Position numbers and translations under genes: made by a program
From: a virus
Strand: one strand, 5' to 3'
DNA length: 40,897 bases
IMG/VR virus record: IMGVR_UViG_3300025086_000076
Span: 1-40,897 of that record
Shown here: piece after piece, positions 2,615-40,897 of the stretch
How the letters are laid out: each line of letters begins with the position of its first letter
Numbering within the stretch: the stretch's first letter is position 1
The notes under the pieces: model-generated
The model's database searches: none
The model's input: only the letters and a program-made list of their open reading frames with translations
Told to the model about the DNA's origin: nothing

Positions 2615-4660
2615 TTATTTTTTTATTAATTTTCTTTGTACTGTACCATCGTTATAGATGTAAAGCAGTAATTTATTTTTATTTTCTTTTGTTGGTCGAC
2701 CTAATAAATCAGTAATCATTATTAGTTCTTTTTTATTCTGCATTCTACTTAACAATGGTCCTGACCAACTACCATCACAGTAATCATACGTTGATTGACA
2801 TATAGTATCCCAAGCGTTTTCGCAGCAGTAGTCATCCACTGAAATTACCCAAGCATAACACTCATCATTTAAGAAGAATGGGTTACCAGATCCATTTACA
2901 CACCAATCCGCCGCGTATAAACAACCTAAAGAATCATGCCCGTGATTTACGTTTGCAAGCGGATCATAATTAAAAGCGTTTAAATCCATACATCCAACTA
3001 TTATTTCTATACAAGAACCATTTTCAGTGTTTGCTAATGTATCATAGTTAAGAGCAGTACTATCAGTACAACCGTAAATATAAGGAATACAAGTAAAGTT
3101 TTCTGTGTTCGCCAAAGCGTTATAATTAAGCATAGAGGGATCCGTACAACCATAAATAAAAGGAACACAGCTACTATTGTCAACATTCGCAAGTGGGTTA
3201 TAATTAAACATTATTGAATCTGTACAACCATACAATATCTCTATACAGCTACCATCATTTGTATTACAAGTATCACAGTAATTAAACATTACTGGATTTA
3301 TACATCCATATATAGTTGGTATACAATTACCATCATCAGCATTAGCTAGTGGAGCGAAGTTAAACGCTAGAGTGTCCATACACCCATATATAACACCAAC
3401 ACAACTTCCATCATCTGTATTTGCTAATGAATCATAATTTAAAGCTATTGAACTCATACATCCATATATTACAGGTATACAAGTGTCAGGTGTGTTTGCT
3501 TGTGGGTTGTAGTTAAAAGCAATGCTAGACATACAACCCGTTACAACGGCTATACAACCACCGTTATCGATGTTAGCTAATGGATCATAATTAAATGCGT
3601 GGGTATTAGTACATCCCCAAACAGCGGGGGTATTACAACTACCGTCACTGGTATCAGCTACAAAACCTTGGGTATAATATTCTAAATAAGAAGAGTTAGT
3701 GCAACCCAAAACGTAGAAACAATCATGAGCTACGTTTGCTGAGTCATTATAATTTAAAGCTAAGCTGTCCATACAGCCAAATATCTTTTCAACACATAAA
3801 TCACCACAAAACGTAGGTGAAATGTATTTAAATAAAGGTTGAATAAAAGGTGGTAAAACCTCTTTCATAACAACCCCGTCAGGGTTAGTTAATCTAAAAC
3901 CACAATGAGCCGCTGTTAAAGAAGCTTGTTGAGTTACATAGAATTTGAACTCAACTGGATGTGGAGAATTTAAGTTTATTAATGTATCAGCAGAAAAACC
4001 ATCTGCTAAATAATAAGTGCTAACGTTTGTATCTTGTGTTACTTCTAAATAAGATCCAACCCAACCATCTCCAATTAAATCAAACATAGTTAGTGTAAAG
4101 TCACAGTTTGATATCAAAGACATTGTGTTAGCTAGTGGATCGTAATTGTACATAGTTGAATCAATACAACCATATACTTTTAAATCTGTGCATGAACCGT
4201 CATCTGTATCGGCTAGAGGATTAAACTCTACATACAGCGGATCCATACACCCAGGGACGGGAGGACAGCCATCAGATACAAAAACGTGTATTGAGTCATT
4301 TTGAAAATCAGGCACATCACCCCACACTAAGGTATCGTTACACTGTATTAAATAGTAAGATCCATTTAAACCACCCCAAAGAGCTCCAGCGAGACCATCT
4401 CCATACGTATCATATATAGTAAAAGTTAACGGCCCTTGCGGTAAGCATAGTAACTCTGTTATAACTGCGTAATCAGGTTGACCACCATAAGCACCACTAT
4501 TTACACTAGCAATTACATTGCCATTTGGCCCTTTGATATTCCAATATGTTTCGCTTTGGTATTGATCTAGGTTTATAACAAGAGTAGTAGGAACACAATT
4601 AAGTGGGCCTTGACTAAATACCGCAAATGGTAATAATAAAAGTAATAGTAATTTATTCAT
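2615..4660 (-). CDS. Phage-encoded T9SS cargo with Cys-rich repeats (681 aa)
   Basis: Domains in order: signal peptide 1-16 (MNKLLLLLLLPFAVFS, cleavage before Q17). Two GDG-type beta modules follow (DTYGDG at 84-89, DLIGDGW at 194-200). Thirteen GC(M/T/I)...NY...AN...C units span 137-580, with an exact 26-residue period from 400 to 556. Then comes a VDDYCCENAWDTICQ Cys/Trp module (607-621). Last is a T9SS type A C-terminal sorting domain at 643-681 (KKELIMITDLLGRP, then LLLYIYNDGTVQRKLI). Family knowledge: such proteins cross the inner membrane by Sec and the outer membrane by T9SS, and are then anchored or released. This is the architecture of a flavobacterial surface protein, yet it lies in a phage operon with matching base usage and junctions (2 and 4 bases). 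It is intact, with no frameshift. Confidence 0.88.
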   Translation of the reverse strand: MNKLLLLLLLPFAVFSQGPLNCVPTTLVINLDQYQSETYWNIKGPNGNVIASVNSGAYGGQPDYAVITELLCLPQGPLTFTIYDTYGDGLAGALWGGLNGSYYLIQCNDTLVWGDVPDFQNDSIHVFVSDGCPPVPGCMDPLYVEFNPLADTDDGSCTDLKVYGCIDSTMYNYDPLANTMSLISNCDFTLTMFDLIGDGWVGSYLEVTQDTNVSTYYLADGFSADTLINLNSPHPVEFKFYVTQQASLTAAHCGFRLTNPDGVVMKEVLPPFIQPLFKYISPTFCGDLCVEKIFGCMDSLALNYNDSANVAHDCFYVLGCTNSSYLEYYTQGFVADTSDGSCNTPAVWGCTNTHAFNYDPLANIDNGGCIAVVTGCMSSIAFNYNPQANTPDTCIPVIYGCMSSIALNYDSLANTDDGSCVGVIYGCMDTLAFNFAPLANADDGNCIPTIYGCINPVMFNYCDTCNTNDGSCIEILYGCTDSIMFNYNPLANVDNSSCVPFIYGCTDPSMLNYNALANTENFTCIPYIYGCTDSTALNYDTLANTENGSCIEIIVGCMDLNAFNYDPLANVNHGHDSLGCLYAADWCVNGSGNPFFLNDECYAWVISVDDYCCENAWDTICQSTYDYCDGSWSGPLLSRMQNKKELIMITDLLGRPTKENKNKLLLYIYNDGTVQRKLIKK
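2921..4252 (-). repeat. Tandem 78-bp (26-aa) Cys-rich repeats in the T9SS cargo
   Basis: Thirteen units start at residues 137, 164, 295, 319, 349, 375, 400, 426, 452, 478, 504, 530 and 556. From 400 on, the period is exactly 26 residues (78 bp). Units have diverged in sequence while keeping G-C, N-Y and the final C, which suggests selection on the fold rather than recent amplification. The second unit is interrupted by the second GDG module. Confidence 0.85.
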
Positions 4661-4662
4661 AA

Positions 4663-4866
4663 TTATTTTTTAACACAATTAGGTACTCTTCTACCTCCTT
4701 TTGTTTTGTAACCTACTTGTTTGTATGTTTTCCAACACTTTATTGGTGATTTCATTTTAAATGGACCTAATTTTCCTAACATAGATCTAACTGTTTTAGC
4801 TTGTTTAGCATGTGTTTTGCTAGCCTTTTCTAATCCTTCGGCTACTTTTTTTAATTTATTTTTCAC
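4663..4866 (-). CDS. Small basic protein with PFKMKSP motif (67 aa, GTG start)
   Basis: It starts at GTG 4866 inside the end of the previous gene. A helical Lys/Ala region (about 1-30) leads to GKLGPFKMKSPIKCWKTYKQ, and the protein ends with GGRRVPNCVKK. The PFKMK(G/S)P element is shared with the 66-aa protein at 7103-7303. The two cysteines (CW and NC) recur in similar short phage proteins as I remember them. The gene ends 2 bases before the T9SS cargo start. Function unknown; the GTG start is the least certain start in the cluster. Confidence 0.62.
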   Translation of the reverse strand: MKNKLKKVAEGLEKASKTHAKQAKTVRSMLGKLGPFKMKSPIKCWKTYKQVGYKTKGGRRVPNCVKK

Positions 4867-5131
4867 CGCATTTCTTTTTAGGATTGTTAACTTGTCTCCA
4901 GTCTTCTTTTTGAAACCAGTCTCTTAATGTAGAGCCTTTTTTACGAACACCTTTTACGTTTGTTTTAGAAGAACGTTTATATTTTCCAGCCTTGCCAGAC
5001 GCTTGTTTAGCAGCAACTAAGCGTGCTCTTTCTTTTTTGCTCATGCTGGCAATTTTAGAGGCAGGCAAACACGTTTTACGTGTGCCTCCTCCTTTTTGCT
5101 TTTTTATAGGATTGTTCTTCTGAACGTACAT
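4856..5131 (-). CDS. Small basic protein, TLRDWFQKEDW type (91 aa)
   Basis: The protein is Lys/Arg-rich with GGGTRKTCLPASKIASMSKK near the start, a KYKRSSKTNVKGVRKKG linker and a C-terminal TLRDWFQKEDWRQVNNPKKK motif. I recall this combination from small proteins of marine phages but cannot name a function. One cysteine lies near each end. No signal peptide is present. The start overlaps the preceding stop (TAATG), and the 3' end overlaps the next gene by 11 bases. Confidence 0.68.
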   Translation of the reverse strand: MYVQKNNPIKKQKGGGTRKTCLPASKIASMSKKERARLVAAKQASGKAGKYKRSSKTNVKGVRKKGSTLRDWFQKEDWRQVNNPKKKCGEK

Positions 5132-5364
5132 TACTTCTTTTTCTTCATTTTCATTTTCATAGCTGAAGCTTTCTTCATCTCCATAGCAGATTTTTTAAGC
5201 ATCATAGCTGATTCTTTTTTAAGTTTCATTGCAGCTTTTTTCATTTTCATTGCAGAACCTTCTTTTTTAGCTATTTCTTTAACTAAATTAGCTGGTAAAT
5301 TAGCTTTTTGCTTAGCAGTTACTTTCATTGGAGCTTTTTTCATTTTTGCAGGTGCTTTTTTCAT
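5131..5364 (-). CDS. Lys/Met/Ala repeat protein (77 aa)
   Basis: The protein is dominated by Lys, Met and Ala. The second half contains about five units of 7-8 residues following (S)AMxxKK, for example SAMKMKK, AAMKLKK and SAMEMKK, ending in KMKMKKKK. A short central part (QKANLPANLVKEIAKKEGSA) is less repetitive. Composition is like Lys-rich histone-H1-like tails, suggesting DNA or RNA condensation, though an amphipathic membrane-active helix is also possible. It lies between the PAP2 gene (1-base gap) and the next basic protein (TAATG overlap). It could be questioned as a gene because of low complexity, but the tight junctions support it. Confidence 0.62.
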   Translation of the reverse strand: MKKAPAKMKKAPMKVTAKQKANLPANLVKEIAKKEGSAMKMKKAAMKLKKESAMMLKKSAMEMKKASAMKMKMKKKK

Positions 5365-5365
5365 T

Positions 5366-5890
5366 TTAAGTTTTTTTAGTATGTTTGTATAATTGTTTTC
5401 CTAATTTTGTTCCGTTAACACTATCGCTCTTATAATGAGCACGCGCTACGTTTCTACTATCAGATATGTTTTTTGCCGTTTGCATAAACGCAGGACCCTT
5501 ACCATATTTGTCTTTTAACGCTGATGCTATCAATATTGCTTGAGCAGAGTGACCAGAAGGATACGAGGGAGTATTCATAGACTTCATTTTAACAGCTTTT
5601 AAATCTTTATCTAACTCGTATGGTCTTTTTCTATTATGATATTTCTTTAATTCTAATATTACAGGTGCTGATTCTTTTATAAGCTTAGCAGCAATGTTTT
5701 TATCATAATCTTTAATGTTATTTTTTTTAGCAGTTTCTTTAAACGAAGCTTCTATATCATCATACTTCTTAACAAACTCTTTGCGCAAAGGTATTTTTTT
5801 AAGAGCTTTAATCTCTTGATCTGTATCAAAACCATTATCACTAGGCGGTTTCATTTTTTTGAAACTTGATATGTCAAAATCCTTAAACAT
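5366..5890 (-). CDS. Soluble PAP2-superfamily phosphatase (174 aa)
   Basis: All three signature motifs of the PAP2 / class A acid phosphatase / haloperoxidase superfamily are present and correctly spaced. They are K82-x6-R89-P90 (KKYHNRKRP), P111-S-G-H114 (YPSGHSAQA) and S145-R146-x5-H152-x3-D156 (SRNVARAHYKSD). Family enzymes remove phosphate from lipids, nucleotides or other phosphoesters through a phospho-histidine intermediate. Unlike membrane PAP2 enzymes it has no transmembrane helices, and unlike class A acid phosphatases it has no signal peptide, so it is predicted to be cytoplasmic or virion-associated. The substrate is unknown. Confidence 0.85.
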   Translation of the reverse strand: MFKDFDISSFKKMKPPSDNGFDTDQEIKALKKIPLRKEFVKKYDDIEASFKETAKKNNIKDYDKNIAAKLIKESAPVILELKKYHNRKRPYELDKDLKAVKMKSMNTPSYPSGHSAQAILIASALKDKYGKGPAFMQTAKNISDSRNVARAHYKSDSVNGTKLGKQLYKHTKKT

Positions 5891-6111
5891 TATTTTTTCT
5901 TAAAATCACCTCTAGTACAACGTACACCCCAGCCAGAAGCATAAGCGCTAGGCCACACTTTAAATTTCTTTTTTGCTTGAGCTTTACAACTAGCAGATAT
6001 TTTAGCTAATGCTGGACTAATTTTTTTTAGCATTTTATTTGGATTACCTTTACCCCCATCAGCTTTACTAGCATGTACGGCTTTTCTTTGTGCATCGCTT
6101 ACGTATCCCAT
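5890..6111 (-). CDS. Small basic protein with WPSAYASG motif (73 aa)
   Basis: It is a Lys/Ala-rich protein whose C-terminal half (AQAKKKFKVWPSAYASGWGV) carries a motif I recognise from a family of small phage and bacterial proteins of unknown function (DUF5872-like). Two cysteines flank it (SCKAQ and VRCTRG). No signal peptide or membrane segment is present. Its TAA stop overlaps the ATG of the PAP2 phosphatase (TAATG), so the two are probably translationally coupled. Confidence 0.68.
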   Translation of the reverse strand: MGYVSDAQRKAVHASKADGGKGNPNKMLKKISPALAKISASCKAQAKKKFKVWPSAYASGWGVRCTRGDFKKK

Positions 6112-6122
6112 AATTTATTGTT

Positions 6123-6497
6123 TTAACATTTCCATCTACGTCTTGCTGCGCAGATTCTTTTTTTAGGTGTTTTACTACAATTAATATTGTGCATTTTCAT
6201 TTGCCCAGCAGATCTAGCGCAATATGATTTTTTACGCTTGCCACCACCTGGTTGTGGTGCTTTTAAATTACCACCAGTTTGTTTGTTATAAGCTTTTCTA
6301 CCAGCAGCTGTCATACCAGCACCCTCTTTAGCTGTTAGAAAATGTCTACCTTTACCTTTTGTAGTTTTACGTAGTTTAGTTAATGGTGAACCATCGTTTC
6401 TTCTACGACCACAACTGGTAACAGGAAAAGGATTACCTCCTTGAACGTATCCTTTTGTTTTCTTAAACATGCTATTTTGTTTTTCGCTTCCAGGCAT
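6123..6497 (-). CDS. Small basic Cys-containing phage protein (124 aa)
   Basis: The sequence is strongly basic (many Lys and Arg). The second half (RHFLTAKEGAGMTAAGRKAY, then GGGKRKKSYCARSAGQMKMH, ending CAARRRWKC) matches the character of a widespread family of small marine phage proteins with a Lys/Gly-rich linker, a SxCARxxG motif and a terminal RxxRRWxC. Cysteines at the N-terminal third (TSCGRRR) and in the C-terminal part could bind a metal or form disulfides. No signal peptide is present. Nucleic-acid binding is plausible from charge but unproven. Confidence 0.7.
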   Translation of the reverse strand: MPGSEKQNSMFKKTKGYVQGGNPFPVTSCGRRRNDGSPLTKLRKTTKGKGRHFLTAKEGAGMTAAGRKAYNKQTGGNLKAPQPGGGKRKKSYCARSAGQMKMHNINCSKTPKKRICAARRRWKC

Positions 6498-6499
6498 AA

Positions 6500-6829
6500 T
6501 TAAAAGTCGCTCATTAATTGATTACTAATTTCTTCTTGTACTTCTTCTTTTGTTGCTAGCATTTTAAAACTAAGATCAGCTTGAAACCTAGCAACTTCTT
6601 CGCCATCTTTAAATATTATAATTGTAGGTACTACAGCTATTTTGTGTTTTGCTTGAGCCTCTGTATCTTTAGCTATATCTATATAGCCAGAGGTTTTAAC
6701 GTCTTCAAGATCCATAACCCAAGGAACATCATTAGCGCTATTCCAACCAGCATTAAACTGCTCAACTTTTATTTGAGCGTTAACACTATTTGATATTAGT
6801 ATTAATAAAATAACTAATAGCTTTTTCAT
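6500..6829 (-). CDS. Exported thioredoxin-fold protein without active-site cysteines (109 aa)
   Basis: A signal peptide (MKKLLVILLILISNSVNA) with predicted cleavage before Q19 sends it to the periplasm. The mature part reads like a compact thioredoxin. FNAGWNSAN (25-33) lies where thioredoxins have FxAxWCGPC; both catalytic cysteines are replaced by Asn (N30, N33). AVVPTIIIFKDGEEVARF contains the cis-proline (P68) and the following strand-turn-strand. The protein has no cysteine at all. It can therefore keep the fold but not the disulfide chemistry, suggesting a binding role. The start overlaps the preceding stop (TAATG). Confidence 0.78.
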   Translation of the reverse strand: MKKLLVILLILISNSVNAQIKVEQFNAGWNSANDVPWVMDLEDVKTSGYIDIAKDTEAQAKHKIAVVPTIIIFKDGEEVARFQADLSFKMLATKEEVQEEISNQLMSDF

Positions 6830-7113
6830 TACCTGTTATATAATTTATCTTCTATTTTTTCAATAGATTTTTTAATTTCTTGTACGTCTTTTTGCGTATC
6901 CATAATAGTATTACGGATCATTTGATCTTTCATTTGAAATTCCATCCTAGTAACTTCATCTGGTGGAATTATAGGTAATTCCTTTGCCTCAGCTATATCA
7001 GCTTGTAACATAAAATACATACTTATCAAAGTTGCCATTGCAAAACCTATACCTATTAATGTCTTTATACTTAACTTAAAAGACGTATCTTCATTTAACT
7101 CTTTAGCGGCCAT
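6829..7113 (-). CDS. Single-TM coiled-coil protein, holin- or spanin-like candidate (94 aa)
   Basis: A short N-terminal tail (17 residues) is followed by one hydrophobic segment (about 18-37, IGIGFAMATLISMYFMLQAD region). A roughly 55-residue charged domain follows, with a predicted coiled coil at the end (DTQKDVQEIKKSIEKIEDKL). This shape fits an inner-membrane protein with a periplasmic coiled coil, such as an i-spanin or a class III holin-like protein. No partner outer-membrane lipoprotein (lipobox) and no endolysin are visible in the window, so a lysis role is unproven. Its stop overlaps the next start as TAATG. Confidence 0.65.
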   Translation of the reverse strand: MAAKELNEDTSFKLSIKTLIGIGFAMATLISMYFMLQADIAEAKELPIIPPDEVTRMEFQMKDQMIRNTIMDTQKDVQEIKKSIEKIEDKLYNR

Positions 7114-7313: not shown

Positions 7314-8396
7314 TTAAAATATTGTGTAATTCATTCCTATTTTGAAATCATACCATTCACGATTCCAATACTTATTGTATTTACCTTCTACAAAATAACC
7401 TAGTTGTTTGTTTACTTTTATTCCGTAAATTAATCCACCAGAATAATCGTACCACTGCTCGTCCTCTATATAATTATGATATGAAAACTCACTACCATCA
7501 TCGTAGTGCCAAGGCATTAAACTTCCCCAAACATGTAACCAAGTATTTTTGTTATATTTATAATAATCAAACCCCATAACTAAAGAGTGTTGAATTACTT
7601 TTGCTAATTTGTTTCTTTCTTTTTCAGTGTAGTCAGCTAGCACTTCAGGTATTACAACCGCCTCCCAAACCTCAGCGCTAGTTGCAACAACCTCTCCGCC
7701 AGGGTTTACGTAGGTGTTGCTATACACATCTACCTCGTAACCCTCCTGTAACGCTAAATAAGTATAATGTATATTACCATTGTCTAGCATCCATTTAGCC
7801 AAAGGATCGTATCCATAAGGTTCAGCAAGACGATGTGTTAGACCAATGTTCCAAGATAGATTTCTACCTTTACGCTGTCTATATCTCTCTGATGCTTCAA
7901 AATATTTAATATCTGCAAACCCATCTTCTAAGTATTCAACTTTCAAGGCAAAGAAGTTTACACATAGTTCATCTGGACAACCATCATCAGAACTAAATCT
8001 AATGAAATGGTGTTGATCCATATAGTCTACACCTTCTTGTCTTTTATAATCTACTTCAAATAAATATTCAACTCCTCTTACTTTACCTACAGTAGCCGCA
8101 TCACTGTAATTAGATTCTGTTCCATCGTAAAATGTTTGGGCTTTATTTTCGTAGCCAAATCTAGCAATTTTACGTAGACCTATAGTAAAGTTATAATCAT
8201 AAGGAGTTGAAATAGTCTTTGTAGATAAACCATTATCTACAGAGAAAATATCAACATCAGAAAGCGACGTACCACCGTTGACAGCAGCATAGAACGTTGA
8301 GTATTTCAACATCTTCTTAACATCCTCAATCCCATATGTTTGTGCTACTGTTATATTAGATATAAGTAGTAGTAATATTATTAGTCTTTTCACCAT
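7314..8396 (-). CDS. Exported outer-membrane beta-barrel protein
   Basis: The 360-aa protein starts with a clear signal peptide (MVKRLIILLLLISNITVA) with predicted cleavage A18|Q19, the Bacteroidota pattern. The mature part alternates aromatic and polar residues as in membrane beta-strands and ends YDFKIGMNYTIF, a typical C-terminal beta-signal with terminal Phe. A CPDELC pair near 138-143 may form a disulfide. It is therefore predicted to insert in the host outer membrane through the BAM machinery. It follows the giant ejection protein after 40 bases and starts the accessory module. Possible roles are superinfection exclusion, receptor occlusion or envelope permeabilisation; none is demonstrated. 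Confidence 0.75.
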   Translation of the reverse strand: MVKRLIILLLLISNITVAQTYGIEDVKKMLKYSTFYAAVNGGTSLSDVDIFSVDNGLSTKTISTPYDYNFTIGLRKIARFGYENKAQTFYDGTESNYSDAATVGKVRGVEYLFEVDYKRQEGVDYMDQHHFIRFSSDDGCPDELCVNFFALKVEYLEDGFADIKYFEASERYRQRKGRNLSWNIGLTHRLAEPYGYDPLAKWMLDNGNIHYTYLALQEGYEVDVYSNTYVNPGGEVVATSAEVWEAVVIPEVLADYTEKERNKLAKVIQHSLVMGFDYYKYNKNTWLHVWGSLMPWHYDDGSEFSYHNYIEDEQWYDYSGGLIYGIKVNKQLGYFVEGKYNKYWNREWYDFKIGMNYTIF

Positions 8397-21284: not shown

Positions 21285-24200
21285 TTATATAATTGGTCCT
21301 GGACCAGTCCATCCTTCTCTGTGCATGTTTTTGTAATTGTTGTTAAAGTAATCAACTAGTTCTTGTTGAGTTGCAAAAGCTAAACCACTACCATCATCCG
21401 CCGAGTATAAGGTTGGATTATTTATATCCGTGCCTTGAATAGCGGTAATATAAGTTTTAGTAACAAAAACAGCAGGACAATATGGTTCTAAATCTGCATT
21501 AAGCACTTCTTGTTTATAAGTTACCATCATGTTTGCAAATGTACCATTAAAACCAGGTTGATTACCAGCATCAACATGTGGAGGTTTGGTAGCGCCAGAT
21601 AATCTAAAATCAAAATTAGAAGATCCACCACTGTACCCATAACTTCTTACCCAACCGCCACTATACCACCAAGGTTGTACTCTGTCAAAGTTGGTTAATG
21701 GATATGTATTTGTTGTTGGAGTACCAACGTGAGTACTAGGACTTGTTAATTGTTTTGTATCATATACGGATGCGTAGGTGCTAGTCACTACTTCAGCAGC
21801 CTGAAAACCACTACCTCCTGAGCCGGTCCAGTTACCGTCGTATCTTCTTTGCGTGTAATAATCTTTAAAATCAGCTCCTGGTCCAGCAACAAAATTTGGA
21901 TTAGTTGATGAATAAGATCCAACTGCCTCTTGGTTTAATCTAGTTTTTGTAGGATCAAAATTAAGGAACTCATAAATTGGAGCATGGGTAGATGTTTGTC
22001 CAATCTTACCAAAGTCGTTAGAATGTAAACCGTCTAAAACTTCTTGTAAATCTGTGTCGCCAATCGGGAACTCTAGCATCTCTGGACTATAGCTAAAATG
22101 GTTTACTAGCAACGTACTGCTTGAATCATAATAACCACCAATACTTGTAGGAGCAAGACTTGATACGTATGTTGTCATTTTTATGTGACCACCATTCTTA
22201 TAATTAACGTCACCTGCCACATTTGTATTTGGCATTAAATAACGCTCACCACGCGCGCTTGGGACTGGTTGATTACTAATAGGATCCTTAATCATAGCCG
22301 TCATGTCAAACGTTACTTTTCGCATATAAAAGAAAGGATCCAAATTATTTGGAAAATTTACAAACGAAGGAATACCAAGCATAAAGTGACTTTGGTACAT
22401 ACCAAAAGCATATTCTTCATTTTGACTAAACACATGACCATCTTCTGGCATTCTTGGATCCCAACCTAATGTAACTGGCACTTTAAACGGTGGGTGTATT
22501 GCGGGGATTACTCTACCACAAGCTAGAGGTCCATAGGTACAACTACCATCATCAGTATTAGCATTCGGATCATAATTAGATGCTGTTGGGTCGGTACAAC
22601 CATTAACAGAACTAGGCTCACAATAGCTATAATCTACGTTGTGATCGGGGAAGTTTGCTTGTGGGTCATAAAACCCAGTTGCCGTAGGATCTGTACAACC
22701 ACGCCATACACAACAACTATTATTACCGTAAGTTCCTGCTGCAGGTAGATTACCGTTACAATCATGAGTATAAGTAAAGTTGTAATTTATAGCGGTTTCT
22801 CCGTTAGGCGCATTTATATTAGTAACTAACGCAGGATCCATACAACCTACTTGTTCAAACAGTACACAACTACCATCATCAATAGTTACACCATCTTGAC
22901 ATGGAGTGTACTGTCCTAAACCGACGGTTGGCAGATTACCACTCTCACAGTCAGAATTAAACATTAATGGGTTACTAGGACATCCAAATACGTCTGGAGT
23001 TGTGCATGGGTCCATTTGGATCTTACCAACGACTTGTTGCCAATCAGAAGTGCTTGAATGGTTGTTGTCTGGATTTAAACATTGTGTTTGTAGTGCAAAC
23101 ATATATTCTTGGCCACAATCAAGGGACAGTGTTGTGCTGCCATTGTAACCTGTAGAAGTACTTATTACGCCACCTTGTCTTGAACCTACAACGCTAGTAA
23201 TACCTGGTTTTAGCACAGTGCTTTTAAACGTAGACCGTTTAAGAGTACCGCTTATCATGCCGTGACTAGCATCAAAGCCTGAGCCAGGAGCCCCAAATGC
23301 TGAGGTAAAATCAACTACCTCATAGTCAGCGTCGGTCCAATGGCTACCACCAGGCGGTACAGTGTTAAGATGATAAACCCTAAATCTAAAACCTGGAGTG
23401 TTTAGCCAATTTGGCTTTCCACCAAGAGGAAAAGAATCTCCTAAATTTATAAGTACTTGATCATCAAATGATACTTCAAACCAAAATGAAACTTCACTAA
23501 GACTTAGAGATTGAATATCCATACTATTTGCATCAACTATTGGGCAACCAACACAGTTACCACTTTGAGTACTAGGCCCACACGTGTTACCGCTAAGAGT
23601 TAAACCACCGTCATAATTAAAATACTGTGACTCACCACAATACAAACAACTACCATCATCAATAGTATTTGTAATATCGTACGTGCAGCCAAGAGCATCA
23701 GTACAACCAAAAGGAGAGTAAGTACAGTTAGTTGTATCGTTAAAATCTGTTGGGCAAGGTTGTAAAGTAGTTATATTTAAATCAGGGCTAATAGCACTTA
23801 ACTGCGTAAAATAACTTTGGTAATCACTATTTGAAGCATCATCTTGCATGTTGTTTACGACACTCCAACAAGCTCTAGAGTGACATAGTGTTTCTTGTGA
23901 TTGCGTAGCGTTACAAGAGTTTATGTTAACAGGAAACCCATTATTATCTTTAGCCCAAGCGTTATTATTATTTAAATTCGACAGAAAATCTGGATCAAAT
24001 GGTATTGGAAATGGATACCTGAAATAGTCAGAATTAATATCTGAACAGTTACTATAAATACAACTACCATCATCATTAGTTGCATTAGCGTTATAATTAG
24101 TTAAAATAGTATTAGAAAAATCATAATTATTAGTATCTGTACAACCATCTTGCGTTACTTGACAATCACAATCAACTCCTAAACCTAAATCTATACATGA

Positions 24201-25229
24201 TGTTCCTAATAAACCACCTGTTCCGTCACAGTTAAAAGCAGAATCATAATTAAAGGCTCCACTATTTGTACAGCCATAATTACAATATACACAACAATCA
24301 TTATCTGTACCATTAAAAACGCCACAAGGTACATCAGCAAATTCGTTATAATTAGTGGCGTTAGGATCTGTACAGCCTGAAATAAAACAACCACCATTAT
24401 CTGTATTGGCAAGAGGGTTGTAATTATCTGCATCGGGGTCTGTACAACCATGGAAAACCTCCACACAACTACCATCATCTATTACAGCCGCATCATAATA
24501 ATTAAACGCGGCCACCGTACCATCCATAAAGTTGTATCCAAGATCTCCAGCTGACGTACAATCTACAACCTCACCATTACCGTTTTCATTGGAACCGTTA
24601 CAAGTACAACCTTGTACTATTTCATTAACCGGCGAAGTCATAACAGTACCTAAGCCTTGATTTGCAAAATTTCTAGGATCATAATCGCTAACTGTACTGT
24701 CGTCTGATACGTTTAAGTTTATGCCTTGAATATAATTAAACCATTTATCTTCTTTGTTAACAAATGGTAGTAAAGCACCTTTATCTTGTTCTGTATTTAA
24801 GCTTTGAACAAACCAACCTTTCTTCTCGTTTAGTTCAAAAATATTATTATAGTTATCTAAACTTACAGTATTCTCTACACCCTGTGATTTTAATTGCCTA
24901 ATAAGCTTTTGTTTAGACTCTACAAAAGCTTGGGTGCCCTCGTAGTTTATTGTTTCAAAAGATTTAATACTTCCTGAAGCTTGATTAAATATAAAATCAA
25001 CAGTAGATGCAATGGTTGTATTATAAAACGTATTCTGAGCAAGCACACCAGTTTCATCATGATGCCTATATAAACCACCTTGTTTAAATGTAAAGTAGTT
25101 ATTAGCGCATGCTATTCCATTTTCAGGAACAAATGATTTAAAACTAACCCAACCCTTAACGTTTTCTTGAAAAGAAACCGTAATTGGCGCTGCTTTTGCT
25201 GGAGTGGAAGGTTGTAGATCTTGTGCCAT
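21285..25229 (-). CDS. Tail structural protein carrying Cys-rich GCTDP...DDGSC repeats (1314 aa)
   Basis: There are three parts. Residues 1 to about 200 form a conserved phage module (VSFQENVKGWVSFKSFVPEN; YNNIFELNEKKGWFVQSLN). About 210-900 is an array of about nine irregular Cys-rich units of the type GCTDPTASNYDPNANTDDGSC, some expanded by insertions. About 900-1314 is a beta-rich module (WDPRMPEDGHVFSQNEEYAF; YTQRRYDGNWTG). There is no signal peptide, as expected for a virion protein made in the cytoplasm. The repeats resemble those of marine flavobacterial secreted proteins and of the T9SS cargo at 2615-4660. The first module suggests attachment to the tail, so the repeats are probably exposed. 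Paired cysteines and Asp/Asn-rich turns could carry disulfides or calcium; this is inference. Confidence 0.82.
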   Translation of the reverse strand: MAQDLQPSTPAKAAPITVSFQENVKGWVSFKSFVPENGIACANNYFTFKQGGLYRHHDETGVLAQNTFYNTTIASTVDFIFNQASGSIKSFETINYEGTQAFVESKQKLIRQLKSQGVENTVSLDNYNNIFELNEKKGWFVQSLNTEQDKGALLPFVNKEDKWFNYIQGINLNVSDDSTVSDYDPRNFANQGLGTVMTSPVNEIVQGCTCNGSNENGNGEVVDCTSAGDLGYNFMDGTVAAFNYYDAAVIDDGSCVEVFHGCTDPDADNYNPLANTDNGGCFISGCTDPNATNYNEFADVPCGVFNGTDNDCCVYCNYGCTNSGAFNYDSAFNCDGTGGLLGTSCIDLGLGVDCDCQVTQDGCTDTNNYDFSNTILTNYNANATNDDGSCIYSNCSDINSDYFRYPFPIPFDPDFLSNLNNNNAWAKDNNGFPVNINSCNATQSQETLCHSRACWSVVNNMQDDASNSDYQSYFTQLSAISPDLNITTLQPCPTDFNDTTNCTYSPFGCTDALGCTYDITNTIDDGSCLYCGESQYFNYDGGLTLSGNTCGPSTQSGNCVGCPIVDANSMDIQSLSLSEVSFWFEVSFDDQVLINLGDSFPLGGKPNWLNTPGFRFRVYHLNTVPPGGSHWTDADYEVVDFTSAFGAPGSGFDASHGMISGTLKRSTFKSTVLKPGITSVVGSRQGGVISTSTGYNGSTTLSLDCGQEYMFALQTQCLNPDNNHSSTSDWQQVVGKIQMDPCTTPDVFGCPSNPLMFNSDCESGNLPTVGLGQYTPCQDGVTIDDGSCVLFEQVGCMDPALVTNINAPNGETAINYNFTYTHDCNGNLPAAGTYGNNSCCVWRGCTDPTATGFYDPQANFPDHNVDYSYCEPSSVNGCTDPTASNYDPNANTDDGSCTYGPLACGRVIPAIHPPFKVPVTLGWDPRMPEDGHVFSQNEEYAFGMYQSHFMLGIPSFVNFPNNLDPFFYMRKVTFDMTAMIKDPISNQPVPSARGERYLMPNTNVAGDVNYKNGGHIKMTTYVSSLAPTSIGGYYDSSSTLLVNHFSYSPEMLEFPIGDTDLQEVLDGLHSNDFGKIGQTSTHAPIYEFLNFDPTKTRLNQEAVGSYSSTNPNFVAGPGADFKDYYTQRRYDGNWTGSGGSGFQAAEVVTSTYASVYDTKQLTSPSTHVGTPTTNTYPLTNFDRVQPWWYSGGWVRSYGYSGGSSNFDFRLSGATKPPHVDAGNQPGFNGTFANMMVTYKQEVLNADLEPYCPAVFVTKTYITAIQGTDINNPTLYSADDGSGLAFATQQELVDYFNNNYKNMHREGWTGPGPII
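22535..24625 (-). repeat. Cys-rich repeat array inside the 1314-aa tail protein
   Basis: Units follow the pattern GC(T/M)(D/N)...NY(D/N)..AN.DDG(S/G)C, for example GCTDPDADNYNPLANTDNGG near 24440 and GCTDPTASNYDPNANTDDGS near 22560. Spacing is irregular because several units contain insertions. The DNA encoding the unit ends is nearly identical at several places (plus-strand motif CAACTACCATCATC near 22540, 22870, 23650, 24060 and 24470). Such short direct repeats could allow gain or loss of units by recombination. Confidence 0.8.
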
Positions 25230-35866: not shown

Positions 35867-37069
35867 TTATTTGTTTTTGTTTTTAATCTTAAACTTAAAA
35901 TCATTAGCATCTTCGCCTAACACTCTTACCTTAATGCCTCCTGCTTCAATTTTTCCATGACTTTGTCTTGGATTCATATTAACATTTTTGGCTTTAGCAA
36001 CACTATTTTTCATAGCGTCCGCTTTTCCTTGTTCATAAAAGTGTTTTGCAACAGCATCCGCATTCATTGCTGTGTATAGAGACTTATGATAACCCTTAGC
36101 GTCTGTTAAAGCAGAATTTTTATCCAAAAACTTTTTGGTGAAATTGCTTATATCGCTCTGAGTGTTTTTAACCTCTTCAGCATTGTTTACATTAAACCTG
36201 TATTTTTTATCACCGACGTTATATTCAAAACCTTTGAACTTGTCGTTGAAAACTTGTTCAGTTTTCTGCGTAAAAATGTCAGAGTTCTTTTTAACTGTTT
36301 TTTGAGTTGCTTCTGACTCCTTGTTGTATCTATTAAAGAAATCAACCGCTTTTTGTTGCTCATTAGTGAGTTTCGATCCAGCTTTGATTTCATTATAGTA
36401 TTTGGACTTTTGCCCGTCCAGATGGGCTCTAGCGCTGGCAACTTGCTCTTTTAGCGCTAATTTTTTTCTTCGTATATCTCTATCTTCGTCTATTTCTTCG
36501 TCGTAAGAGAATGAATCTTCCATAAGGAAGTTAATTTCTTCGTTGTTTAAATGAGGTTTTGTTTGTTTGTAGTATTCATATAATAGATTTTGATCGTCTA
36601 ATTTTGAATAATCTTGATTAAGCTTTACGTAGTCATTTAAATCTCCTCCAGTCTCTTCCATAAAGTCCATTAACTTTTGGATATTTTCTGGTAATGGTTT
36701 TCCAGTAGCTTCAGCTTCAGCCACAGCTTCTTCAATTTGTTCTTCTACTTCAGCAACTTCTTCAGCTTCTTCTTTAGTAATTTCTTCTAATACTGGAGCC
36801 TCTTGTGTTTCAGCTTCCGGTTGTACTTCTTCTTGTTCTTGTGGGGCGTCGGCATCTTCAGACTCTGCAACCACTCCGCTGTCGTCAGTTGAACTTGCTT
36901 CAACTTCTGTATTTTCTTTTGGTTCTTCATTTTCTTCCGGTGTTGGTGGTTTACTTAAATCTACCTTTATAACACTGTCGTCACCTGCAGATTCAAATTT
37001 ACTTTCATCAACTTGTTCAGTTGTTTCTTGTGTAGTCTCTTCGACTACTTGTTCATCTTTTTCTTCCAT
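35867..37069 (-). CDS. Acidic scaffold-like protein
   Basis: This 400-aa protein sits between portal and major capsid genes, where tailed phages usually encode the scaffolding protein that organises procapsid assembly. The first 120 or so residues are extremely rich in Glu, Gln, Thr and Ser and probably disordered. The middle (about 185-260) is charged and helical with coiled-coil character, and the end (about 350-400) is Lys-rich and basic (FKFKIKNKNK). An acidic N-terminus, helical middle and basic C-terminus is a common scaffold design, the basic tail contacting the capsid protein. I see no protease motif. The function is inferred from position and composition. Confidence 0.65.
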   Translation of the reverse strand: MEEKDEQVVEETTQETTEQVDESKFESAGDDSVIKVDLSKPPTPEENEEPKENTEVEASSTDDSGVVAESEDADAPQEQEEVQPEAETQEAPVLEEITKEEAEEVAEVEEQIEEAVAEAEATGKPLPENIQKLMDFMEETGGDLNDYVKLNQDYSKLDDQNLLYEYYKQTKPHLNNEEINFLMEDSFSYDEEIDEDRDIRRKKLALKEQVASARAHLDGQKSKYYNEIKAGSKLTNEQQKAVDFFNRYNKESEATQKTVKKNSDIFTQKTEQVFNDKFKGFEYNVGDKKYRFNVNNAEEVKNTQSDISNFTKKFLDKNSALTDAKGYHKSLYTAMNADAVAKHFYEQGKADAMKNSVAKAKNVNMNPRQSHGKIEAGGIKVRVLGEDANDFKFKIKNKNK

Positions 37070-37097
37070 AATATAATATAATAATAATTAATAAATT

Positions 37098-39518
37098 TTA
37101 ACTAGGGTCAAACGAACCTAAATCAAATCCTCCACCTAGTATATCATTACCTGCAGACTCAAAGTTTTTAGGTGGTTTTCCACTATTTCTTTGCTCAATC
37201 ATTTCTGATTGTTGTGTAGCTTGTATCTTTGTTCTTTCGTCTTTTCTATCTTCTTTTTCTTTTTCTCTTTCTTTCATTCCATCAACTTCAATTCCTTTTA
37301 GCTGCATGTTGTATTGGAACTCTAGAGCCATTAGCTCTTTCTTGTGCTGAACTTCTTGCATCATTTTTTGAGCATCCATTTGAGCCTCCATTTGCATTAA
37401 CTCAGCTTTACTAGCGTTTATCGCTTGATTTTTTTGTATGTCAGCTTGTGCAGCAGCTTGAGAAGATTGTTGGTTTAATTCAGCTTGTTGCTGCATGTTT
37501 TGTTGTTGGATAGCTTGGTCTTTGTCTTGCTTTTTCTTTCTACGTATTTTAAGTAGTTGATTAGCTAGTTTTATATTGCGTATTTCTCTAAGATCAATAG
37601 CATCTTCTAGCTCTATACTTTGCTGCTGTAAAGCCATTTGAATATTGTTCTCTAAAATAGCTTGCTCTTCTTCATCTGGTTTTAATTCTAAAAATATTCC
37701 AAAATCATAAAGATGTAGTTCTGACATTTCTTTTAGTGTAGCTACGTTATGAACTCCTATAGCTTGAATAAACGCATCTTTAGTTGGAGAATATTCTATA
37801 ATATCAGATATTCTTAGCGAAAGACACTCTGCCGTTTCGGCTGTTAAAAATAAACCAGCTTGTAATATATGTCTAGTCGCTGTGTTAGAATTTGCTGCCG
37901 CTAGTTTTTGAACGCCTACTAAAGCGTTTTTATCTGGCGTACTACCGTCTCTAGCTTCGTTAAGTCCGGTTACGTCTCTTATCATCTGTAAATAATAGTT
38001 ATACGTACCAATTAGCGCTTGCATTTTATTTCCACCAGAACCTGATGTGATTTCCTGAATAGGTACTTTACCTGGATTCATATCACCATCACTAGTAAAT
38101 GATCTACCAATAACACTACCAGTTTGGAAGAACATGTTTAAAGCTTCTTGTGGGTTGTAGTTAGTTCCATTACCTAAATCAATTTCAGCTAAACCATCAG
38201 CATCTAAATAAACTCCATCTGGTGTCATTCTAGACATTACTTGTTGTAGTTTCAAATGTGTAAGCTGTATCATATCAGCAAAACCAGTAATACGTTTTAC
38301 TAGTGAATCTATCTTACCATTGTACATACGTGGAGCAACAATAGCATAACTCATTTTAACCTTAGTAAAATCACTTTTTGGACGCATCATGTTTTTAGAC
38401 ATTTCCCATCTAAGTAATTTATCGGTACCAAGAATCATAGCACCATCATATAAGCACTCTATAGATCTTTGCATTTTACTAAAACCACCCTCCATGTTTT
38501 CTGGCGGGTTAAACGAATCATCTTTAGGTATAATTTTATCAGCACCAGTTCCAGTTTCTTTTATTTTATAAACCTCGTTCATATAAGTTTTATAGTTAAA
38601 ATATAAAACTTGAATAGTGTTATTGTCTTCTTTATCGTAGTTGTGTATTGAATTATAATTAGATCTATTATAAGATTTATTCTTCATTATATCTTCAAGA
38701 TCACTTTCTGATAAATGTGGAAACTCTTTAGCTAATTCGTTTACCGGTATAGTTTTTACTTCACCAACATAATATATATCTTCAAAATATGGAGAATCAG
38801 TATATGAATAAACTAAATTAGCAGGATCAACGTAATCAATAGTAACACCTTCAGAAGTATTAAATGATGTTTTAACAGCTCCAATACCAAGCACTGTTAA
38901 ATCATAATAAAACCTTTTCTTTGTTAACTCATAATTATTACCTTCAAACAAAACACTTAAAGCTTGTTCTTCTGCTAACTCTACAGCTTGTTTATACGAA
39001 AGTTGCATGTGTATTCCTAGTTCTTCTTCTGATTCTGGTAATGTTTTTTGATCAGTCTCGTATAGATTTACATTAAAGTTTTCCATTGCTGCTTGGTTAA
39101 ACTCTTTAGTTTGCATATCTCTTATTATAGACTCCATGTACTCTGTTCTTTTTTCAACACCATTTGGTGATTGTGAAAAAGCTTTTATGTCATAAGTTCG
39201 TTCAGCTATACCATTAACAACTATATCTACAAATTTAGAAATAATAGGAACAGGTGTCCAGTCTAAATTTAAATAGGACAAATCGCCATTAATTGACAAC
39301 TCATCCTTATATTTCTGTATAGATTGTTCGCCTCGCGCGTACAACCTTAAATTATGAAAATTATTATGATTAGATCTATATCTATTCATATTTCTATCAT
39401 CGTTGAACCACTCTTGTTCTATTGCTTTACCTACTCTTAAACCGTAATCATAACTTAGCTTTTCAGCATCGCTTACGGTTTGACTTGGAAAATAACTTTT
39501 AATGCCAGACTCTGCCAT
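37098..39518 (-). CDS. Portal protein
   Basis: This 806-aa protein is predicted to form the dodecameric portal ring at the packaging vertex. Support comes from its position directly after the terminase, its length, and a portal-like core (SKFVDIVVNGIAERTYDIKA near residue 100; the MIRDVTGLNEARDGSTPDKNALVG region in the second half, typical of large podovirus portals). Roughly the last 150 residues are Gln-, Met- and Glu-rich and look like a long coiled coil, ending in a Gly/Asp/Phe-rich tail. The start is ATG at 39518 with an A/T-only leader (AATAAAT just upstream). Family assignment rests on context plus recognised sequence character, not on a search. Confidence 0.88.
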   Translation of the reverse strand: MAESGIKSYFPSQTVSDAEKLSYDYGLRVGKAIEQEWFNDDRNMNRYRSNHNNFHNLRLYARGEQSIQKYKDELSINGDLSYLNLDWTPVPIISKFVDIVVNGIAERTYDIKAFSQSPNGVEKRTEYMESIIRDMQTKEFNQAAMENFNVNLYETDQKTLPESEEELGIHMQLSYKQAVELAEEQALSVLFEGNNYELTKKRFYYDLTVLGIGAVKTSFNTSEGVTIDYVDPANLVYSYTDSPYFEDIYYVGEVKTIPVNELAKEFPHLSESDLEDIMKNKSYNRSNYNSIHNYDKEDNNTIQVLYFNYKTYMNEVYKIKETGTGADKIIPKDDSFNPPENMEGGFSKMQRSIECLYDGAMILGTDKLLRWEMSKNMMRPKSDFTKVKMSYAIVAPRMYNGKIDSLVKRITGFADMIQLTHLKLQQVMSRMTPDGVYLDADGLAEIDLGNGTNYNPQEALNMFFQTGSVIGRSFTSDGDMNPGKVPIQEITSGSGGNKMQALIGTYNYYLQMIRDVTGLNEARDGSTPDKNALVGVQKLAAANSNTATRHILQAGLFLTAETAECLSLRISDIIEYSPTKDAFIQAIGVHNVATLKEMSELHLYDFGIFLELKPDEEEQAILENNIQMALQQQSIELEDAIDLREIRNIKLANQLLKIRRKKKQDKDQAIQQQNMQQQAELNQQSSQAAAQADIQKNQAINASKAELMQMEAQMDAQKMMQEVQHKKELMALEFQYNMQLKGIEVDGMKEREKEKEDRKDERTKIQATQQSEMIEQRNSGKPPKNFESAGNDILGGGFDLGSFDPS

Positions 39519-39523
39519 ATTTA

Positions 39524-40897
39524 TTATTTGATTATTTGTGAATTATTACCAGTATTACTATACTTGGAAATGTTTATATTTAGTTTAGGTTTTTCAACCT
39601 TTGCGTTCGGTGCATATAAATGTCTATTATTTGCCATAATAGCTAAACCAGAACTTATAGATGCATCAAACTTTGTTCTTTTATTTATATCGAATTTACT
39701 CCAATCGTTTAACAAAGCATTAAAGTAAAGATCTCCAAATGTTCCATCTTGCTTCATACCAACATGATCTTGTATGTACATTTCAATTGCAGCAGCATGA
39801 GCTTGTTTTATATCTTCGCTAGAGTTTGGTATACCACCTACTTCTTTTTCCGCTACAGATAATTTGTTCCATATTTTATCAGGTCTATTCATACTAAAAC
39901 CTCTGTATCCTCTTCTTCTTAAATAGTATAACAATCTAGGTTTATTGTTCTCTGCGAGTATTGGCATACCATAAAACACTAGTGCCATTAGAACATCTTC
40001 AAAGAATATTTCAGCTGTAGGTGGTCTTGATAAGTATTCTAAAAAAAAGCTATTCGCAGGAGCGTCCTCCATACTAAACCTGGTTAAGCCGTGTAATGCT
40101 CCTTTAGATCCTTCTCCATCTACAGTCCCTGATATATCATAAGAGTCACAACCAAATGCTCCCATGTGTTCATTACCAGGGTATTTTATACCGTTTTTAA
40201 GTATCACTCTATTCTGCAATTGCTGAGGTGGAACCCAGCTAACTTTAAATCTACCTTTTGGATCTGGGTAGAATATTACTTGTGAATCTTTTATTCCGTT
40301 AACCCATTGAAAATTACCTGTTGTAACCCCTAAGGTTCTAGACATCTCTTCGTTATAATCTATTTGCTCGTATATTTTTACTAGATTAAATATACTATTT
40401 TTTGTTTCATCTCTAAACGCGTGCTCTGTAGTTCTTGGAAACTGGCGGTAAAATTCGTTTAATCCATCTTGATCATCTTTTAAACCATCAACTTCGTTTT
40501 GCCAATTATCTATTACACCTACATCTATTAGTTCACCGTCTGGTGCGAGTCTATCGATATCAGGAGTAGTAAAGACTGGAATTCCATACTCGTCAATAAA
40601 TCCTTCGTAGTTCCATTCCATTGGGATAAAAAGAGAGTATAGTCCAGACTTTGTCTGACCATTTCTATTTCTTTTCGTGACATCTGACGAGTTGTATAGT
40701 TTTTTAAAGTTTTCTCCACCTTTGTCTAATGCATTTGAAGTTGAGCCCATCATACATTTACCTATAATTCTACTACCTAATCGTAAACATGTTTTTGTAA
40801 CCCTCCAGTTATTTAAAATATTATCAGGTCTTTCCCATTTACCACTTTCATCGTGTACTAGTAACGCTAATTTTTCACCATCATAGCTATTATCACC
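39524..40897 (-). CDS. terL: Terminase large subunit, C-terminal part (5' end beyond the window)
   Basis: This is the DNA-packaging motor: an ATPase that translocates DNA into the procapsid, followed by a nuclease that cuts it. The frame stays open to the right edge, so the ATG at 40753 is internal. Translating 40754-40897 gives 48 more residues, including LALLVHDESGKW, a Walker B strand with the acidic pair at 40847-40852. It is followed by MMGSTSNA (coupling motif, about 40730-40753). Downstream, FGCDSYDISG and FFEDVLMALVFYGMPILAENN fit the acidic motifs of the RNase H-like nuclease domain. The Walker A region lies outside the window. The gene ends 5 bases before the portal ATG, the usual terminase-portal order. 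Confidence 0.93.
   Translation of the reverse strand, partial: GDNSYDGEKLALLVHDESGKWERPDNILNNWRVTKTCLRLGSRIIGKCMMGSTSNALDKGGENFKKLYNSSDVTKRNRNGQTKSGLYSLFIPMEWNYEGFIDEYGIPVFTTPDIDRLAPDGELIDVGVIDNWQNEVDGLKDDQDGLNEFYRQFPRTTEHAFRDETKNSIFNLVKIYEQIDYNEEMSRTLGVTTGNFQWVNGIKDSQVIFYPDPKGRFKVSWVPPQQLQNRVILKNGIKYPGNEHMGAFGCDSYDISGTVDGEGSKGALHGLTRFSMEDAPANSFFLEYLSRPPTAEIFFEDVLMALVFYGMPILAENNKPRLLYYLRRRGYRGFSMNRPDKIWNKLSVAEKEVGGIPNSSEDIKQAHAAAIEMYIQDHVGMKQDGTFGDLYFNALLNDWSKFDINKRTKFDASISSGLAIMANNRHLYAPNAKVEKPKLNINISKYSNTGNNSQIIK

Follow-up and report, generated by a model that had tools for sequence, protein, structure and literature searches.

Genes whose products carry sorting signals of the type IX secretion system (T9SS) have been described in phages before. 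Cryophage encodes proteins with T9SS type A sorting domains, for which use of the host system was proposed and a role in superinfection exclusion suggested (Bellas et al. 2020, PMC7468147), and T9SS sorting-domain proteins have been noted in the gut BACON phages (de Jonge et al. 2019, PMC6949934). The concept of a phage-encoded T9SS cargo is not new, and the view of our first-pass annotation that such a protein is unusual and has no described function has to give way to these precedents. The nearest parallel for the role that we propose below is the Llp protein of phage T5, which blocks the receptor FhuA and whose gene adjoins that of the receptor-binding protein (PMC9586334).

The window that contains the locus described here, 40,897 bases long, is an entire virus record of IMG/VR. 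Virtually all of its long ORFs are on the minus strand, and the cargo gene lies within a long minus-strand run, with tail or ejection genes on one side and small decoration- or fibre-like genes on the other.

2615..4660, minus strand: cargo gene P0001, T9SS-type, 681 aa with an ATG start; relatives in at least 80 viral loci
39524..40753, minus strand: terminase large subunit (TerL), C-terminal part; phrog_6681, E = 5e-94; marks the phage origin

The cargo ORF runs unbroken through 681 codons from the ATG to the stop, with 4 bases between it and the frame at 2206-2610 and 2 bases between it and a GTG-start gene at 4663-4866, so the position, the single intact frame and the tight junctions are as first annotated. 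The search of viromes proposed at that stage was made as a scan of viral contigs and returned 88 stretches with relatives, of which 80 were retained, and full-length copies were obtained from dozens of contigs. TerL, the portal and one structural protein of the window match PHROGs (E = 2e-154 to 2e-94), their nearest annotated relatives being Caudoviricetes MW202828, Maribacter phage Panino, the Flavobacterium elemo phages (Elemovirus) and Cellulophaga phages. Structural genes are thus present and the gene order recurs, a phage-genome setting like that of Cryophage. Judged from the sequence, the cargo gene is real, intact and phage-borne. Two other origins were considered and rejected. A chance ORF is ruled out by the dN/dS of 0.06-0.22 between cargo relatives together with their number, and a chimera of host and phage DNA, which the first-pass annotation had named as an outcome that would tell against its reading, is ruled out because the gene order around the cargo is identical in six independent contigs (L001, L007, L010, L013, L023 and L027).

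The encoded protein can be divided into five parts.

4610..4660, minus strand: signal peptide, residues 1-17, MNKLLLLLLLPFAVFSQ, read from the sequence
4265..4597, minus strand: N-terminal beta-sandwich domain, residues ~22-132; AF2 pLDDT 77-91
2891..4252, minus strand: array of ~13 GCxD Cys-pair repeats, residues ~137-590; from sequence, AF2 and a repeat profile
2756..2881, minus strand: conserved Cys-rich C-terminal domain, residues ~594-635, CYAWVISVDDYCCENAWDTICQSTYDYC; near-invariant alignment columns
2618..2740, minus strand: short C-terminal sorting tail, residues 641-681; from tail swaps, host use and AF2

The N-terminus resembles a Sec signal peptide, as previously annotated, and when scored with a simple hydrophobicity rule a signal-like N-terminus is found in 109 of 120 cargo relatives versus 130 of 1207 background ORFs. 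Fold searching of the cargo gave weak C2-like matches only, with low TM-scores (AF2 pTM 0.29), and the MAM domain PF00629 is matched in 4 of 51 relatives. The repeat array, which is broken up by a second beta-rich domain (residues ~183-291), contains 13 GCxD repeats by profile and 10 by a stricter regular expression; with 41 Cys in the protein, the repeat modules and the Cys-richness reported earlier are borne out. A PDB sequence search with the cargo, and one with the beta-barrel protein described below, gave no match.

It is at the C-terminus that the first-pass annotation requires revision. It had placed a full T9SS type A sorting domain at residues 643-681 and had itself counted the lack of a match to TIGR04183 or PF18962 against the idea; neither model matches the window cargo, whether the whole protein or the tail alone is searched, and the tail is instead a short variant of ~40 aa that both models miss. 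The type A domain of these models spans ~72 positions from a YPNP start, whereas the window tail (~40 aa) starts near KKxLxxxTDxLGR and falls below both. The likeness lies in position: the type A domain takes the place of the short tail in near-identical proteins. The AF2 model gives the window tail three strands (pLDDT ~84), and the consensus of the short tails is xxxKxLIxITDLLGRPxKxxKNKxLFYIYxDGTVEKKxIKx. All intact cargo copies bear one of the two kinds of tail, 41 of the 68 intact tails (window included) being short and 27 canonical type A. The canonical tails open with YPNP or WPNP, and of the 51 aligned family members 17 have a match to each of the two models (best E 1.7e-12 for TIGR04183 and 1.4e-13 for PF18962).

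Three pairs of relatives (L019/L020, L078/L018 and L107/L114) are natural tail swaps, in which body identity is 86-90%, and mostly 85-95% when taken block by block, and the tails differ; the break is abrupt and falls at the same junction, near GP.PxR. On the tree of the barrel protein encoded in the same loci, tail type switches 10 times, with at least seven of the switches forced by well-supported branches. We therefore suggest that the short and canonical tails are functionally equivalent, which the swaps support. A profile-profile comparison of the two gave no significant support for common descent (probability 1.5%), so the assignment of the short segment as a sorting tail rests on the swaps and on its use by hosts. 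In each of 30 carrier records there is one sorting tail, which is short in 18 and canonical in 12 (one of the latter scoring below the curated cut-off), and no record has both, if a partial match of 11 residues to the short tail within a 1663-aa frame of one record is disregarded; the records were chosen for having the cargo and are possibly fragments, and the informative part is that no second tail is seen. The short tail alone had no match in annotated phage records, and a literature search for a short T9SS tail in streamlined marine Flavobacteria found nothing.

Host use of the tail was examined with the phage-derived tail profile (E <= 1e-4) in 148 genomes belonging to the same order as a Flavobacteriales MAG. 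Matches were found in 57 genomes, with as many as 49 in a single genome; of these 57, 56 are 0.8-2.0 Mb in size and one is 4.0 Mb. From one of them, G013, 21 different proteins were read, each with the short tail ending no more than 2 residues from the C-terminus, and a signal-like start was present in 13 of 18 complete frames versus 12 of 41 control ORFs. The loci L199-L215 of G013 are among these host examples. SprA (TIGR04189) was found in 124 of the 148 genomes, and more often in those with the tail (56 of 57 short-tail genomes versus 68 of 91 others, Fisher p=6e-5). The short-tail genomes carry canonical TIGR04183 tails too. Homologues of the cargo body occur in all 12 short-tail genomes tested versus none of 6 larger genomes, and this, together with the host use of the tail, indicates that the phage cargo was assembled from host-type surface modules. 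As the cargo carries the host lineage's own tail, small-genome marine Flavobacteriales are the likely hosts. We consider it very probable that the cargo is exported by the T9SS. Beyond the phages, an entire class of T9SS-type cargo in these Flavobacteriales escapes the standard T9SS models, and current annotation would undercount it by up to ~49 proteins per genome.

The original reading of the locus dealt with the cargo only. A phage-borne exported cargo stands, by homology and tail swap; what was missed is a multi-gene module that extends over many lineages. Gene-order comparison leads us to conclude that the cargo is one part of a conserved set of four genes, the other three being as follows.

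6500..6829, minus strand: thioredoxin-like protein without CxxC, 109 aa, predicted exported; TIGR01068 E=6e-5 and alignment
6829..7113, minus strand: TM94, 94 aa, one membrane helix and a coiled coil; from sequence, in 40/42 loci
7314..8396, minus strand: OMP360, 360 aa, outer-membrane beta-barrel with a signal peptide; AF2 and Foldseek

The order is barrel (7314-8396), TM94 (6829-7113), thioredoxin-like protein (6500-6829, overlapped by the TM94 gene by 1 base), a few variable small genes and the cargo. When loci with at least 5.5 kb downstream were selected by the barrel, the thioredoxin-like protein and the cargo were present in 42 of 42 and TM94 in 40 of 42; selected by the cargo, the testable loci had the barrel and the thioredoxin-like protein in 37 of 37 and TM94 in 35 of 37. 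Among the 30 carrier records, TerL is 81-95% identical to that of the window in ten, 23-27% identical in twelve and without a detectable match in eight, while barrel identity stays at 55-88%. We conclude that the module is shared across phage lineages, having either been exchanged or been kept under very strong constraint. None of the four proteins was found in 50,697 annotated phage records, and none matched the PADLOC library of anti-phage defence systems. Their predicted locations put one product in each layer of the envelope.

The AF2 model of OMP360 (mean pLDDT 74.6) has about a dozen long antiparallel strands, and its top Foldseek matches are the NanC, BamA and FapF barrels. The fold search argues against a phage version of the PorV/SprF shuttle (FadL type), as a FadL homologue appears only at rank 37. 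The family has at least 557 matches in viral contigs, and in bacterial and archaeal MAGs the gene was found on four contigs only (L084-L087). These include bins filed as Nitrosopelagicus and Maricaulis, and at least some look like mis-binned phage contigs; the 3.8-kb contig in the archaeal bin is a clear mis-bin, and we do not accept the barrel on MAG contigs as a host gene. In some barrel relatives (for example L027, L032 and L052) a lipoprotein-like leader (CAAPKKCCSQ) replaces the plain signal peptide, whereas the mature part stays as it is. The thioredoxin-like protein has FNAxWN..N in place of the CxxC site, and a CxxC occurs anywhere in only 10 of its 127 relatives; its C-terminus is strictly conserved.

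Several small genes lie between the module genes and the cargo. The frame at 5366-5890, in the virion-gene operon, encodes a PAP2-superfamily-like protein (PF01569, E=7e-5, below the cut-off) and recurs in a dozen related loci. Two small basic proteins at 5890-6497, with matches to DUF6321 (E=5e-14) and, more weakly, to DUF5872, recur beside the module in many related contigs, and a 77-aa low-complexity protein rich in Lys, Met and Ala at 5131-5364 has a histone-like make-up.

The GCxD repeat also occurs outside the cargo, in a virion protein of the same phage.

21285..25229, minus strand: tail (muzzle-like) virion protein, 1314 aa, with four GCxD repeats; PF25729 and repeat profile

This protein matches PF25729 (crAss_MUZ_C) with E=4e-5 and 24.4 bits, under the 27-bit cut-off, and has neither a signal peptide nor a sorting tail; its match points to a crAss-like tail in these podovirus relatives. 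In other carriers the repeat is present up to nine times in large proteins of the tail region, and the profile gave no match on 480 shuffled controls. One such protein of 1768 aa (L021:27-5333), with nine GCxD repeats and without a sorting tail, lies upstream of the module and is probably a tail protein sharing the cargo's repeat. A repeat of the GCxD type also occurs in the cyanophage Synechococcus phage S-CAM3, within a protein that carries a virion structural annotation (L230, record 36382-37932), and the repeat is therefore not limited to phages of Bacteroidota. A repeat shared by cargo and virion fits the expected look of a device for receptor occupancy. As host surface proteins carry the GCxD repeat too, we treat this as a clue, not proof.

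Taking these observations together, our best overall explanation, which we put forward tentatively and at somewhat less than even chances, is that the cargo is a T9SS-exported phage surface protein that, with its module, remodels the surface of the infected cell late in infection and masks receptors. The cargo would be made while the phage infects a marine Flavobacteriales host with a streamlined genome of about 1-2 Mb, would pass the inner membrane by means of its signal peptide and would be delivered outside the outer membrane by the host T9SS through its short, host-type tail. There it would work with TM94, predicted in the inner membrane, with the thioredoxin-like protein that has no redox site, predicted in the periplasm, and with the beta-barrel, predicted in the outer membrane. 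The adhesin-like Cys-repeat body, with repeats as in the phage's own tail protein, would occupy or hide receptor sites and so keep further phages and released progeny off the doomed cell. Masking as the main role of the cargo is possible, if doubtful. We prefer it because in this phylum phages may use T9SS-exported adhesins (SprB/RemA) as receptors and changes in GldM confer phage resistance (PMC13288928), because other phages have exported exclusion proteins, and because of the shared repeats. The evidence does not single masking out: the cargo's repeats occur in many host proteins, and its anatomy may equally fit adhesin, progeny-clustering or nutrient-related roles. Early expression is common among superinfection exclusion genes, whereas the cargo gene sits among virion genes. 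A bolder extension, which we regard as somewhat unlikely, is that the four proteins form a trans-envelope apparatus with one protein per layer that tags the infected cell as taken, a unit exchanged between phage families and serving self-recognition or receptor occupancy across uncultured marine flavophages.

We ranked the other explanations by likelihood as an adhesin or clumping factor, an aid to lysis and release, a virion component and a decoy cargo. As an adhesin, the cargo would cause infected cells or their debris to aggregate, or to attach to particles or to neighbouring cells that are uninfected, and so spread progeny; the MAM domain of some relatives, the C2-like sandwich and the Cys repeats common to host surface proteins and the cargo are consistent with this. 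Nothing separates it from masking except that the repeats shared with the virion tail slightly favour receptor occupancy, and we judge it unlikely. TM94 is organized like an inner-membrane spanin (an N-terminal membrane helix and a periplasmic coiled coil), and with one module protein per envelope layer it could be imagined that TM94, the thioredoxin-like protein and the barrel disrupt the envelope while at lysis the cargo loosens the contacts of cells with each other or with the matrix. However, domain searches gave no lysin or spanin match, the barrel is long, conserved and closed, unlike the small o-spanin, and the cargo has no enzyme domain; such a release function seems distinctly improbable. 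Were the cargo a tail or head fibre, its signal peptide and tail would serve assembly at the surface, where leaving virions would collect it. Its place between tail/ejection and decoration- or fibre-like genes and the GCxD repeats in the muzzle-like protein and the S-CAM3 structural protein agree with this. However, the repeat-bearing virion proteins lack the signal peptide and sorting tail that the cargo relatives keep (the tail in every intact copy), and Sec-exported proteins do not re-enter the cytoplasm, where phage heads and tails are built; we think a virion component equally hard to credit. A decoy cargo, abundant enough to saturate the T9SS and keep off the surface the host adhesins that other flavophages use as receptors, would fit a tail type that is the host's own, the proposed receptor role of SprB/RemA and the resistance of GldM mutants (PMC13288928), but is very unlikely, as it would not need a conserved body, yet the low dN/dS, invariant Cys and domains are kept, and it leaves the barrel, TM94 and thioredoxin-like partners unexplained.

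Our preferred reading, remodelling of the cell surface with receptor masking, has wider consequences. Phages of marine Bacteroidota are abundant, and few that infect streamlined lineages have been cultured. If the reading is true, a module present in hundreds of viral contigs would alter what an infected flavobacterial cell shows to other phages, predators and particles; the comparisons suggest that many uncultured marine viruses of small-genome Flavobacteria remodel the cell surface of their hosts during infection. Phage use of the T9SS is also made directly testable in laboratory Flavobacterium.

Set against the known systems, the locus differs from each. Cryophage has three variable accessory genes (endoglucanase, GH39 and PA14) in one cryoconite-hole phage, whereas here each phage has a single conserved gene, which belongs to a fixed module found in many lineages and encodes a different body with mostly a short tail. 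The gut BACON phages are alike in having T9SS tails on Bacteroidetes phage proteins encoded near head genes; their proteins have BACON domains rather than GCxD repeats and a full sorting domain as annotated, and no link to a barrel, TM94 or thioredoxin-like protein is described for them. T5 Llp is likewise a phage-encoded exported envelope protein and masks a receptor, as is proposed for the cargo; it is, however, a small periplasmic lipoprotein that binds an outer-membrane transporter from inside, whereas the cargo would be a large T9SS-exported protein of the cell surface. What is new is the fixed four-gene module, its spread over unrelated phages, the single tail per phage, the short tail itself and the natural tail swaps.
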